From NCBI GenBank assembly GCA_947630665.1, contig CANRID010000005.1:1-64000 (forward strand): DNA of 64,000 nucleotides. The letters run 5' to 3'. Numbering within the stretch: position 1 is the first letter of the stretch; each line of letters begins with the position of its first letter. The position numbers were made by a program, and so were the translations under genes. This DNA is from an uncultured Bacteroidales bacterium (GTDB taxonomy: Bacteria > Bacteroidota > Bacteroidia > Bacteroidales > UBA932). Below the pieces are notes generated by a model. It saw nothing but the letters and a program-made list of their open reading frames with translations, did no database searches and was not told the origin of the DNA. Positions 51,473 through 57,253 of this stretch are shown in pieces.

Positions 51473-52213
51473 ATGAATGTAAAGAGAATAGCCGGCCTGG
51501 CGCTGGCGCTGCTGATAGCGGTTGCGGGTTCGGCCCAGAAGAAATACGAATACCGGGTAAAGGCCGGATTTAACGTAGGAGGAACCTCTCCCCTGCCGAT
51601 CCCGGCCGAAATACGGAAAATCAAATCCTTCTCCCCTACCATGAACTTCTCCATAGAGGGGAATGTCATACGGCATCTCGACGAGAAATGGGGCGTCATG
51701 ACGGGACTGAGGTTCGAGACCAAGGGAATGTCCACCCATGCCAGGGTAAAAAACTATTCGTTGGTAATAGACGTCAGCCAGGGAGATGAAACAGGGACTA
51801 TCGAAGGCGTATTTACAGGAGATGTAAAAACGGAAGTCAAAAACGAATATATCACGCTTCCTTTGCTGGCTGCCCGGCGGGTAAGTGAACGCTGGTTCCT
51901 TAAAGCCGGACCTTATTTTTCATATTTGATAAAAGGAGGATTCAACGGATCGGCATACGATGGTTATATCCGCGACCAGAACCCTGTCGGGAATAAGGTA
52001 GGAGTGGAAACTTCTACTTACGATTTCTCAGATGATATCACGGGGTTCGACTGGGGCGGGGAATTCGGAGCGGAATGGAAAGCCTATTCCCATCTTTCCG
52101 TATATGGAGATCTCACCTGGTCTGCAAAATCCATTTTCAAAAAAGGATTTAGAAGCATAGGATTCAATATGTACAATATTTATCTGAACTTGGGCTTCGC
52201 ATACGTATTTTAG
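51473..52213 (+). CDS. outer membrane beta-barrel (PorT-like) protein
   Basis: Signal peptide, YRVKAGFNVGG..., ends NLGFAYVF. Confidence 0.7.
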   Translation: MNVKRIAGLALALLIAVAGSAQKKYEYRVKAGFNVGGTSPLPIPAEIRKIKSFSPTMNFSIEGNVIRHLDEKWGVMTGLRFETKGMSTHARVKNYSLVIDVSQGDETGTIEGVFTGDVKTEVKNEYITLPLLAARRVSERWFLKAGPYFSYLIKGGFNGSAYDGYIRDQNPVGNKVGVETSTYDFSDDITGFDWGGEFGAEWKAYSHLSVYGDLTWSAKSIFKKGFRSIGFNMYNIYLNLGFAYVF

Positions 52214-52252
52214 AAAAATCCGCCTTACGATTTGTAAGTGAAAAATTATTGC

Positions 52253-52260
52253 TATATTTG
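52253..52260 (+). promoter_or_regulatory. -7 box (TATATTTG) of leu leader; -33 TTTG at 52231-52234
   Basis: TTTG and TAnnTTTG spaced ~18 bp, 50 bp upstream of the leader peptide. Confidence 0.6.
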
Positions 52261-52310
52261 TACCGCATTTGGGTTACCCTTATGGCATTTAAGTTTGTTT
52301 ACAGAAGAGC

Positions 52311-52391
52311 ATGAAACGTTTCCGATTATCCCTATCCCTGCGACTGCTGCTCGTTTCCCCGAGGAGACAGTACTTCTGCATGGATAAATAA
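52311..52391 (+). CDS. leucine-rich leader peptide (MKRFRLSLSLRLLLVSPRRQYFCMDK*)
   Basis: 26-aa ORF with 6 Leu codons within codons 6-14, followed by a terminator and leuA; not in ORF track. Confidence 0.8.
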   Translation: MKRFRLSLSLRLLLVSPRRQYFCMDK

Positions 52392-52413
52392 ACCGGTACG
52401 TGCAAAAATATGG

Positions 52414-52446
52414 AAGGCTGTCTTACATTAAGGCAGCCTTTTTTAT
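52414..52446 (+). terminator. attenuator terminator upstream of leuA
   Basis: AAGGCTGTCTTA-CAT-TAAGGCAGCCTT (12 bp with one G-U) + TTTTTT. Confidence 0.9.
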
Positions 52447-52520
52447 TGACATCTTGTAAAAACAAATTACACTTACAAATTGTAACTAAATCTACAAATA
52501 AAGTAACAATTTAACAAATT

Positions 52521-54017
52521 ATGGAGCAAAAAGTCTATATTTTTGACACAACCCTCCGAGATGGAGAGCAAGTACCCGGCTGCCAACTTAATACTATCGA
52601 AAAAATAGAGCTTGCTAAATCACTGGAGCTGTTAAAAGTAGATATTATAGAATGCGGGTTCCCGGTTTCCAGCCCCGGAGATTTTCAATCGGTGGTAGAA
52701 ATCTCGAAAAATGTTACCGAGCCGGTGATCTGCGCCCTGACCCGCGCCGTGGAAAAAGACATAGATGCAGCGGCAGACGCCCTTCATTTCGCCCGAAGGA
52801 AAAGAATCCATACCGGGATAGGCACTTCCGATCCTCATATTAAATATAAATTCAATTCCAATCGGGAAGAAATTATCGAAAGAGCCGTCAATGCGGTCCG
52901 GTATGCCCGGAAATTCGTGGATGACGTGGAATTTTACGCGGAAGATGCCGGACGGACGGAAAACGAATATCTGGCACGCGTAGTGGAAGCCGTCATCAAG
53001 GCCGGAACCACCGTAGTGAACATCCCCGACACCACCGGCTACTGCACGCCATGGGAATACGGGGAAAAGATCAGATTCCTGATGGAGAATGTTCCCAATA
53101 TAGACAAGGCCATTCTTTCCACCCACTGTCATAACGACCTGGGAATGGCTACGGCCAATACGCTGTCGGGAATCATGAACGGCGCCCGTCAGGTGGAAGT
53201 AACTATAAACGGAATCGGGGAGCGGGCCGGCAATACCTCTTTGGAAGAAGTGGTCATGATTCTGCGCAGCCGGAAAGACCTTCCTTTTTATACGGATGTG
53301 GATACCAAACAAATCTATAAGAATTCCCGCTTAGTTTCCACCCTCATGCGGATGCCCGTCCAACCCAATAAAGCCATCGTAGGACGGAATGCATTCGCCC
53401 ATTCGTCCGGAATCCATCAGGACGGAGTGCTGAAAAATAAAGAGAGCTACGAAATCATAAATCCGATGGATGTAGGGGTCAATGACTCGGTAATCGCCCT
53501 TACCGCCCGCAGCGGACGTGCGGCATTAAACCATCATTATCAGCGGTTGGGCATAGAACTCACTCCGGAAGAGCTGGACCATGCCTACGAAAAATTCCTG
53601 CTGCTGGCAGACACTAAAAAAGATGTGAACGACAGCGACCTGCTGATTATCGTGGGAGTGAACCGGAACGAAGCCCAACGGAAAATCCGCCTGAAATTCC
53701 TCCAGGTAATTTGCGGAAAGAATTCGGTCCCGATGGCTACCGTAAAACTGAATATCGACGGGGAAATCTGCCAGGCTACCGCATCCGGCAACGGTCCCAT
53801 CGATGCCGCTTTCACCGCCGTAAAAAAGCTCATCAACCGGAAGATCATAGTGGAGGAGTTCCTGGTCCAGGCTATTACCCGCGGCTGTAACGATGTAGGA
53901 AAAGTACACGTGCAGGTAGAAAACCGGGGACACCTTTATTACGGCTTCTCTGCGAATACGGACATCGTAACCGCCTCGGTAGAGGCCTTTGTGGATGCGA
54001 TCTCCAAATTCATTTAA
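52521..54017 (+). CDS. leuA: 2-isopropylmalate synthase
   Basis: [49 protein letters not shown]. Confidence 0.94.
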
Positions 54018-54066: not shown

Positions 54067-55473
54067 ATGGCTAAAACATTATTCGATAAAATCTGGGAAA
54101 CCCATATCGTGCGGCAAATTCCCGACGGTCCTTCCCAATTATACATTGACCGCCACTTTATCCATGAAGTGACCTCACCCCAAGCCTTCCAGGGCCTTAA
54201 ACAAAAAGGAGTGGGAGTTTTCCGCCCCGGGCAGACCTTCGCCACCTGCGACCATAACATTCCCACGCGGGATCAGGAAAAGCCCATACAAGACGAATCC
54301 TGCCGGCAGCCGGTAGAAACCCTCGAAAGAAATTGTCGGGAATACGGCATCACCTATTTCCCGATGCTCGACCCTGCCCACGGCATCGTACATGTCATCG
54401 GACCCGAACAAGGAATCACCCAGCCGGGCATGACCATCGTCTGCGGCGACAGCCACACGGCCACCCACGGGGCTTTCGGCTCTATCGCCTTTGGTATAGG
54501 GACGAGCGAAGTGGAAATGGTACTGGCTACGCAAACCCTCCTGCAATACAAGCCCAAACAAATGCGTATCACCCTCGACGGAAAGTTGGACGAGTATGTT
54601 ACCCCTAAGGATGTAATCCTGTACATCATTTCCCGATTAGGGACATCGGGAGGAACCGGCTATTTCGTAGAATATGCAGGAGAGGTATTCCGGAACATGA
54701 GCATGGAAGGGAGAATGACCGTATGCAACATGAGTATAGAGATGGGTGCCCGCGGAGGGATGATAGCCCCGGACCGTATCACTTTCGAATACCTTAAAGG
54801 CAGAAAATACGCTCCCTCCGATGTTTCTGCCGTTGCCGGTGAGGAAGATCCGTTCTCTTTGGCCGTTAAAGAATGGAGCAGGCTCCGTTCGGATGAAGAT
54901 GCCCGCTTCGATAAGGAAGTCTCGTTCCGGGCGGAAGAGATCCGGCCGATGATTACTTACGGTACGGATCCCGGACGCGGAATCGCCATCGACGACGTCA
55001 TTCCGGCCTGCGATGAAAGCGGACGGAAAGGACTCCGCTACATGGATTTTTGCGAAGGCGAGAAAATGATCGGGAAAAAAGTGGATTATATATTTGTCGG
55101 GAGCTGCACCAACGGCCGCATCGAAGATTTCAGAGCATTCGCCAAGTTAGTCGAAGGGAAAAAGAAGGCTCCTTATACGACTGTCTGGTTGGTACCCGGC
55201 TCCGCAGAGGTAAGAAGGCAAATGAAAGAAGAGGGGCTGGACCGGATTCTGGAAGAGGCGGGGTTCGAATTAAGGCAACCGGGCTGTTCGGCCTGTCTGG
55301 CGATGAACGAAGATAAAATACCGGCCGGAGAATACGCCCTTTCCACTTCCAACCGGAATTTTGAAGGGAGACAAGGCCCGGGAGCCCGGACCATGCTGTG
55401 CGGACCGTTAGTTGCCGCTGCATCGGCACTGACGGGCGTAATCACCGACCCGAGAACCATGCGGACGAAATAA
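54067..55473 (+). CDS. leuC: 3-isopropylmalate dehydratase large subunit
   Basis: [58 protein letters not shown]. Confidence 0.96.
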
Positions 55474-55512: not shown

Positions 55513-56139
55513 ATGTCATTTGAAAAAATAAATATCATCCAATCTCCCGTGGTAGCCACGCCGGTAGAAAATATAGATACCGATCAGATCATTCCCGCCC
55601 GCTTCCTTAAAAGCACGAGCCGGGAAGGATTCGGCAAAGTGCTGTTTATGGACTGGCGATTCGGTCCCGACAACAAACTGATAACGGATTCCGTATTCGC
55701 TCTCGCCCCTCCTCATGCACGGATCTTGGTAGCCGGCAAGAATTTCGGATGCGGCTCCAGCCGGGAGCATGCGGCATGGGCTTTGGTGGATTACGGATTC
55801 AGAGCCGTAGTTTCCAGCTTTTTCGCAGACATATTCCGCAACAATGCCCTCAACAATGGTCTGTTGCCCGTACAGGTAAGCGAAGATTTTCTGGCCGCCC
55901 TGTTCCGGGAGCATAAAAAGAATCCGCTGACAGAGCTTAAAATCGACCTCCCGCACAAAACCGTGGAAATTATAAGGACCCTCCCGACAGGAAAAACGGA
56001 ATCCTGCCTCCGGGAATCATTTCCTATCGGGGAATACAAGCAGCAATGCCTGATGAACGGGCAGCAGGATATAGATTATCTGATAAGCAGCCGGCCTTTT
56101 ATAGAAGCATACGAACTCGGTCGGACGCAAAAAGCGTAA
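55513..56139 (+). CDS. leuD: 3-isopropylmalate dehydratase small subunit
   Basis: NIDTDQIIPARFLKS, AGKNFGCGSSREHAAWAL. Confidence 0.96.
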   Translation: MSFEKINIIQSPVVATPVENIDTDQIIPARFLKSTSREGFGKVLFMDWRFGPDNKLITDSVFALAPPHARILVAGKNFGCGSSREHAAWALVDYGFRAVVSSFFADIFRNNALNNGLLPVQVSEDFLAALFREHKKNPLTELKIDLPHKTVEIIRTLPTGKTESCLRESFPIGEYKQQCLMNGQQDIDYLISSRPFIEAYELGRTQKA

Positions 56140-56164: not shown

Positions 56165-57253
56165 ATGAAAAAAAATATAGCAGTACTCCCCGGAGATGGT
56201 ATCGGCCCAGAGGTCATCGCGCAGGCCGTCAATACTTTAAAAGCGATTGCGCAGAAATTCGGACATACGTTCTGTTTCGAATATGCAGAAATAGGAGGAT
56301 GCGCCATAGATAAATACGGCGAGCCTTATCCGGCCGCCACCCATGAATTATGTATGAAAAGCGATGCGATCCTGTTCGGCGCCATCGGGGATCCTAAATA
56401 CGATATGGACCCGCAGGCGAAAGTACGTCCCGAACAAGGCTTGCTGAAAATGCGCAAAAGTCTGGGTTTGTTCGCCAATCTGCGGCCTATCCGGCCATTC
56501 CCCGCCTTGCTGGACCGTTCCCCTTTAAAAAAGGAAAGGATTGCAGGAGCAGACATGATGATCGTACGCGAGCTGACGGGAGGCTTGTATTTCGGAGAAC
56601 CCAGAGGCCGCAACGAAAGCGGTACGACAGCTTTCGATACCTGTATATACAGCAAGGAAGAAATCTCCCGGGTGGCTGTCCGGGCTTTCGAGCTGGCAGG
56701 TCTGAGGAAGAATCATGTAACGCTGGTGGACAAAGCCAACGTACTCGCCACTTCCAGGTTATGGAGAGAAACGGTCAAGGCGCTCCGGGATGAGAAATAC
56801 CCGCAGATAAAACTGGATTACATGTTTGTAGATAATGCCGCCATGCAATTGGTAACGGCCCCCGGGTATTTCGATGTCCTGCTGACGGAAAATCTTTTCG
56901 GGGATATTCTCAGCGATGAAGCCGGCGTAATTACCGGCTCCATCGGACTGCTTCCCTCCGCCTCGGCGGGAGAGAGTGTCTCATTGTATGAACCCATTCA
57001 CGGATCGTACCCGCAGGCGGCCGGAAAAAACACCGCCAATCCCGTAGCCGCCATTTTGTCGGGAGCCATGTTGCTGGAATACTCTTTCGGAATGCAAAAA
57101 GAAGCGGAAGCCGTTACGGACGCTTGTGCAAGGGCAATAGAAAACGGAATCGTAACGGAAGACCTGGCGGCAGGCGGCAAAGCATTTTCCACCTCGGAGG
57201 TCGGAGAGTATATCTGTAAAGCCGTTATGGGAAAACAGGTAACGCCTTTCTGA
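56165..57253 (+). CDS. leuB: 3-isopropylmalate dehydrogenase
   Basis: VLPGDGIGPEVIAQAV, LTGGLYFGEPRG, NLFGDILSDEAGVITGSIGLLPSAS. Confidence 0.96.
   Translation: MKKNIAVLPGDGIGPEVIAQAVNTLKAIAQKFGHTFCFEYAEIGGCAIDKYGEPYPAATHELCMKSDAILFGAIGDPKYDMDPQAKVRPEQGLLKMRKSLGLFANLRPIRPFPALLDRSPLKKERIAGADMMIVRELTGGLYFGEPRGRNESGTTAFDTCIYSKEEISRVAVRAFELAGLRKNHVTLVDKANVLATSRLWRETVKALRDEKYPQIKLDYMFVDNAAMQLVTAPGYFDVLLTENLFGDILSDEAGVITGSIGLLPSASAGESVSLYEPIHGSYPQAAGKNTANPVAAILSGAMLLEYSFGMQKEAEAVTDACARAIENGIVTEDLAAGGKAFSTSEVGEYICKAVMGKQVTPF

Follow-up and report, generated by a model that had tools for sequence, protein, structure and literature searches.

A leucine-rich leader before leuACDB in an uncultured Bacteroidales bacterium is very probably a ribosome-mediated attenuator with counterparts across the order

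The window analysed here is a 64,000-nucleotide stretch from the 2.24-Mb assembly (G000) of an uncultured gut bacterium of the order Bacteroidales, for which Candidatus Egerieousia is the closest relative with a name. Between the end of a beta-barrel gene at 52213 and the start of leuA at 52521, this DNA carries in order a Bacteroidota-type promoter, a leader ORF, a small hairpin and a U-tailed terminator, followed by an operon that NCBIfam models, all four above their cut-offs, assign the order leuA-leuC-leuD-leuB (Table 1). The promoter consists of a -33 TTTG, 18 nt and the -7 element. A simple promoter and terminator scan detected neither the Bacteroidota promoter nor the terminator; its models are unsuited to this phylum.

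Table 1 Features of the leuACDB leader region and related loci (positions are those of the window unless a locus is named)
Feature	Position	Strand	Basis or remark
15-bp palindrome CTTACGATTTGTAAG enclosing the -33 TTTG (52231-52234), candidate operator	52224-52238	+	exact match
-7 element TATATTTG, Bacteroidota-type promoter	52253-52260	+	transcription start probably near 52266
Leader peptide ORF, 26 aa, MKRFRLSLSLRLLLVSPRRQYFCMDK	52311-52391	+	sequence; Leu-rich leader at the equivalent place in relatives
Leucine control codons, 6 of 9, including rare CTA at 52332	52326-52352	+	sequence, codon counts
1:2 hairpin GTTTCC-CCGA-GGAGAC	52353-52368	+	-6.9 kcal/mol
Antiterminator 5' strand (segment 2)	52364-52382	+	pairs with 52399-52424, -19.1 kcal/mol; own arm ranks 1 of 32
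Antiterminator 3' strand (segment 3), overlapping the terminator 5' arm	52399-52424	+	fold, arm-swap test
Intrinsic terminator (3:4) AAGGCTGTCTTA-CAT-TAAGGCAGCCTT plus U-run	52414-52444	+	12 bp, loop CAT
Near-copy of the palindrome, GTTACAATTTGTAAG, between terminator and leuA	52472-52486	-	sequence match
leuA, 2-isopropylmalate synthase	52521-54017	+	NF002086, 727 bits, over cut-off
leuC	54067-55473	+	TIGR00170, 618 bits, over cut-off
leuD	55513-56139	+	TIGR00171, 160 bits, over cut-off
leuB	56165-57253	+	TIGR00169, 460 bits, over cut-off
CimA-like second synthase (X), between leuD and leuB	L141:4417-5907 and equivalents		Bacteroides-type leu operons
Sister leaders before ilvD, hisG, the prephenate dehydratase gene and trpB	L198, L217, L234, L236 (G000 contigs C1, C2, C38, C7)		

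The six leucine codons of the leader (TTA 52326, CTA 52332, CTG 52338, CTG 52344, CTG 52347 and CTC 52350) all lie where a preceding sequence-only reading, which had described a 26-residue peptide with six leucines in nine codons, placed them. When the intergenic region was dinucleotide-shuffled 20,000 times, an ATG ORF this rich in leucine (six per nine codons) arose in 50 cases. The GTTTCC/GGAGAC hairpin and the 12-bp terminator with a U-run named in the same reading were recovered as well, the terminator stem spanning 52414-52440 (-15.9 kcal/mol with its tail) and ending 80 nt before leuA. The antiterminator proposed there was correct in its core and too short in its extent: GAGACAG (52364-52370) is complementary to CTGTCTT (52418-52424), but the full, bipartite pairing joins segments 2 and 3 over the longer intervals in Table 1, and reaches its listed stability while the 3' arm of the terminator is not yet made. 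The whole leader RNA folded with z = -3.5, and of 200 shuffles only one was as stable.

We found that this arrangement recurs across Bacteroidales, the comparison of leu leaders that had been suggested as a check. Loci carrying leuA were drawn from named genomes, from the window's family and from the order, oriented and stripped of duplicates, which left 121 unique upstream regions. A leader was called when a short ORF with at least five Leu or Ile in ten codons started 81-127 nt before a terminator. By this definition 61 of the 121 regions carry a leader ORF rich in branched-chain amino acids together with a terminator (63 script calls minus two spurious loci, L026 and L081); the ORF alone (at least five Leu or Ile per ten codons) was present in 75 of the 121 real regions versus 18% of shuffles. 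The exact pattern of the order-wide core matched eight times, seven at leuA and once in a coding region (L117). At 42 of the 61 loci, versus 6 expected, the promoter motif TANNTTTG lay no more than 130 nt 5' of the leader start codon. Among the regions examined, some close relatives have no leader before leuA: in L010, L011, L012 and L088, leuA lies directly behind rpsU, which bears an extended Shine-Dalgarno-like AAAAGGAGGTGG. In longer stretches around the L088 and L012 loci (L178 and L179), leuC, leuD and leuB are absent within about 6 kb past leuA.

Segment 2 and the terminator arm change together in sequence from locus to locus. In an arm-swap test on 32 dissimilar loci, we paired the stretch behind the control codons either with the terminator 5' arm of its own locus or with those of the others. 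Own-arm pairing averaged -11.4 kcal/mol versus -9.1 kcal/mol for swapped arms (z = -5.8), none of 100,000 permutations was as good, and the window's segment found its best partner of all 32 in its own arm. Thus GAGACAG pairs with CTGTCTT in the window, AGAGAGC with GCTCTC in L009, TTGGGAG with CTCCCAA in L007, AGAAGT with ACTTCT in L002, GGGCGG with CCGCCC in L091 and AGGTGG with CCACCT in L101, while loci beyond the window's family use a near-constant GTGAG with CTCAC. Of the Leu codons in leaders, 28% are the rare CTA, versus 4% in leuA (odds ratio 9.2, p = 2e-38); for Ile, ATT accounts for 80% of the codons in leaders and 40% in the leuA genes behind them.

With a leader ORF whose run of cognate codons is kept across the order and whose translation is predicted, an intrinsic terminator between this ORF and the first gene, and an antiterminator that excludes the terminator and that a stalled ribosome would free, the leuACDB leader is very probably a ribosome-mediated transcription attenuator of the standard kind. 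The 1:2 / 2:3 / 3:4 logic of the sequence-only reading fits the mutually exclusive folds, the cognate codons, the order-wide conservation and the covarying antiterminator. In the mechanism we propose, a ribosome would follow RNA polymerase along the leader. When charged Leu-tRNA is plentiful, the ribosome would run through the leucine codons, segment 2 would be covered or refolded with segment 1, and segments 3 and 4 would form the terminator. When charged Leu-tRNA is scarce, the ribosome would stall at 52326-52352 and cover segment 1, and segment 2 would capture segment 3 before segment 4 exists, so that polymerase would proceed into leuA. Footprint geometry is compatible with both outcomes: with the Leu codons at 52344-52350 in its A site, a ribosome would reach to about 52356-52362 and segment 2 would stay free, and once the ribosome has passed, 1:2 and 3:4 can both form. 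The minimum free energy fold of the full-length leader favours the terminator even with a ribosome stalled, so antitermination must be kinetic, as in other attenuators. The leader stop codon of the window lies about 19 nt beyond segment 2 as originally drawn (52364-52370), and termination with a ribosome at the stop codon may therefore be less efficient; in several relatives the stop codon is at or just before segment 2.

The same genome carries comparable leaders before its ilv, his, trp and phe operons, each rich in its own amino acid (VVIILVVLVISII, HHHHH, WW and FFYFYFYF, respectively) and each followed by a terminator-like hairpin. The peptides are MDRKLSIQNNRRWGHLLNSICNHPVVIILVVLVISIIRQ before ilvD, MLTVSLHNHHHHHLPASGGGILLYGM before hisG, MGQSRFTYFFYFYFYFSGKVKAGVCM before the prephenate dehydratase gene (pheA) and MRRLSADRYWWRRLHFKSRK before trpB. 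Relatives across the order likewise have runs of His, triplets of Trp and runs of Phe and Tyr in their leaders. Sister leaders were found by a composition threshold, under which single weak matches prove little; the telling cases are VVVIIVV and stretches of five to seven His. One trp locus (L220) is preceded by a pair of trp leaders in tandem, both of which have WWW and a terminator-like hairpin of their own.

The leu attenuator of E. coli and Salmonella (leuL, Rfam RF00512) has a leader peptide with Leu codons and mutually exclusive antiterminator and terminator. The window leader resembles it in placing such a peptide before a leu operon, in its exclusive folds and in its inferred logic; it differs in showing no Rfam similarity (RF00512 matched nothing up to E = 5 in the window region or up to E = 1 in six relatives) and in the operon order leuACDB. 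A further difference lies in the phylum, where Shine-Dalgarno sequences go unrecognised by the ribosomes of Bacteroidia (PMC9976891), so the leader here would be initiated another way. Within the phylum, one described leader of this kind is Bacteroid-trp (RF01692), the Bacteroidete tryptophan peptide leader RNA first listed by Weinberg in 2010 (PMC2864571). It too is a peptide leader RNA, but its amino acid is tryptophan, not the leucine of the window leader. RF01692 did not match the leu leader in the window region or the six relatives; its sole match was the trp locus L221 of a relative, at 41.7 bits, under the cut-off of 49. A study of Flavobacterium psychrophilum proposes leader-peptide attenuation for amino-acid operons (PMC9723704), thus the same mechanism on the same kind of operon in another class of Bacteroidota; it lists pheA and hisG among structured 5' elements common to other Flavobacteriaceae, in a passage that does not mention leu. 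In B. thetaiotaomicron, short ORFs in long 5' regions have been called reminiscent of leader peptides (PMC7366714), and PMC4833913 cites a comparative survey that Lopatovskaya and co-workers published in 2010. We found no open-access paper on the leu leader or on an order-wide set, and no Rfam family covers this leu leader. The locus had been presented as a noteworthy example in Bacteroidales; it is not an isolated one, given RF01692, the leaders proposed in Flavobacterium (PMC9723704) and the leaders of at least four more operons in the same genome.

Other readings of the locus were weighed against attenuation. Main control might instead act at initiation, with a repressor bound to CTTACGATTTGTAAG over the -33 box and a terminator that is minor or decayed. 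In the genus, six leu promoters have this palindrome or a near-copy at the equivalent position, and it also occurs at ilvD and ahead of a gene for an XRE-cupin regulator; we nevertheless regard this reading as very unlikely, because the attenuator covaries and extends far outside the genus, whereas most of the other loci examined did not show the palindrome. The two controls may coexist. Even less likely is a leader RNA that binds a ligand, a tRNA (as a T-box) or a protein directly, with an incidental ORF. Antiterminator and terminator logic is common to riboswitches and T-boxes, but no Rfam T-box or amino-acid riboswitch family matched in the window region or six relatives, and neither a peptide composition that follows the pathway in five operon types nor the enrichment of CTA is expected of an incidental ORF.

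The beta-barrel gene ends upstream on the same strand, and the terminator could in principle be the ordinary terminator of that gene, with a Leu-rich ORF beside it by chance. However, a Bacteroidota-type promoter separates the two, and such a coincidence is excluded by conservation, by the fixed spacing and by the permutation test, and contradicted by the order-wide set; we give this explanation almost no credence.

Citramalate synthase CimA is an enzyme of isoleucine synthesis, and the presence of a gene resembling it appears to be linked to what the leu leaders encode. In Bacteroides, Phocaeicola, Parabacteroides, Seramator, Paludibacter and others, the operon reads leuA-leuC-leuD-X-leuB, where X has its best match in CimA, the citramalate synthase of Leptospira (632 bits, below the model's strict cut-off, versus 191 for LeuA). 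The citramalate-synthase model TIGR00977 told X from LeuA by count and position but not by score; NF042433 did discriminate. Linkage of X was read directly from gene order in nine operons and, in the rest, from the distance between the synthase genes on one contig. Leaders before CimA-linked operons contain both Ile and Leu in 28 of 28 cases (mean Ile share 0.44), whereas 16 leaders tested from operons of the window's family without X have a mean Ile share of 0.17, with Ile absent in seven (Mann-Whitney p = 1.3e-5 for 28 versus 16; the groups being largely two clades, p does not measure independent events). Leader specificity appears to track operon content (i.e., Ile and Leu with the CimA-like synthase, mostly Leu only without it), in part confounded with clade. 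Two Salinivirgaceae loci outside the family (L054 and L059), with no linked CimA, have a Leu-only block, LLSALSLSLLRLRR, a second, weaker instance of the Leu-only code; their terminators are weak, and both loci are outside the set of 61. Exceptions are L099, with four Ile in its leader and CimA unlinked, and L158, L159, L175 and L177, family members with X in which a leader was not detected. Attenuator leaders of proteobacterial ilv operons also code for more than one branched-chain amino acid, comparable to the Ile and Leu leaders of Bacteroides-type leu operons; in Bacteroidales, unlike there, the second amino acid appears tied to the citramalate-synthase-like gene in the operon.

On these comparisons, we consider it reasonably probable that ribosome-mediated attenuators form a general set throughout Bacteroidales, serving leu, ilv, his, trp and phe operons and read by ribosomes that do without Shine-Dalgarno pairing, and that the leu leader code switches between Ile plus Leu and only Leu as the citramalate-synthase gene is in or absent from the operon, so that peptide specificity records the pathways served. 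Attenuation of this kind needs a ribosome close behind RNA polymerase, and its conservation in many amino-acid operons would imply such coupling in Bacteroidales, a major gut lineage whose ribosomes ignore Shine-Dalgarno sequences; the leaders are ready reporters for testing it. A leader code tied to what the operon contains would also make leader peptides usable for inferring the pathway an operon serves. The value lies in the order-wide set and the shift in leader code more than in the single leu locus.

Further elements surround the leader. A second promoter-like pair at 52268-52297 (TTTG 52268-52271 and TAAGTTTG 52290-52297) lies directly 5' of the leader ATG and would yield an almost leaderless leader ORF. 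The palindrome and the product of the XRE-cupin gene are candidates for a branched-chain amino-acid operator and its regulator. That gene (L238:1711-2286) has its copy of CTTACGATTTGTAAG immediately before it and adjoins a gene for an AMP-binding enzyme. Outside the window, sites of this type in the same genome are at G000:C1:120713-120727 and G000:C11:25174-25188; they comprise the near-copies at ilvD and the copy before the XRE-cupin gene.
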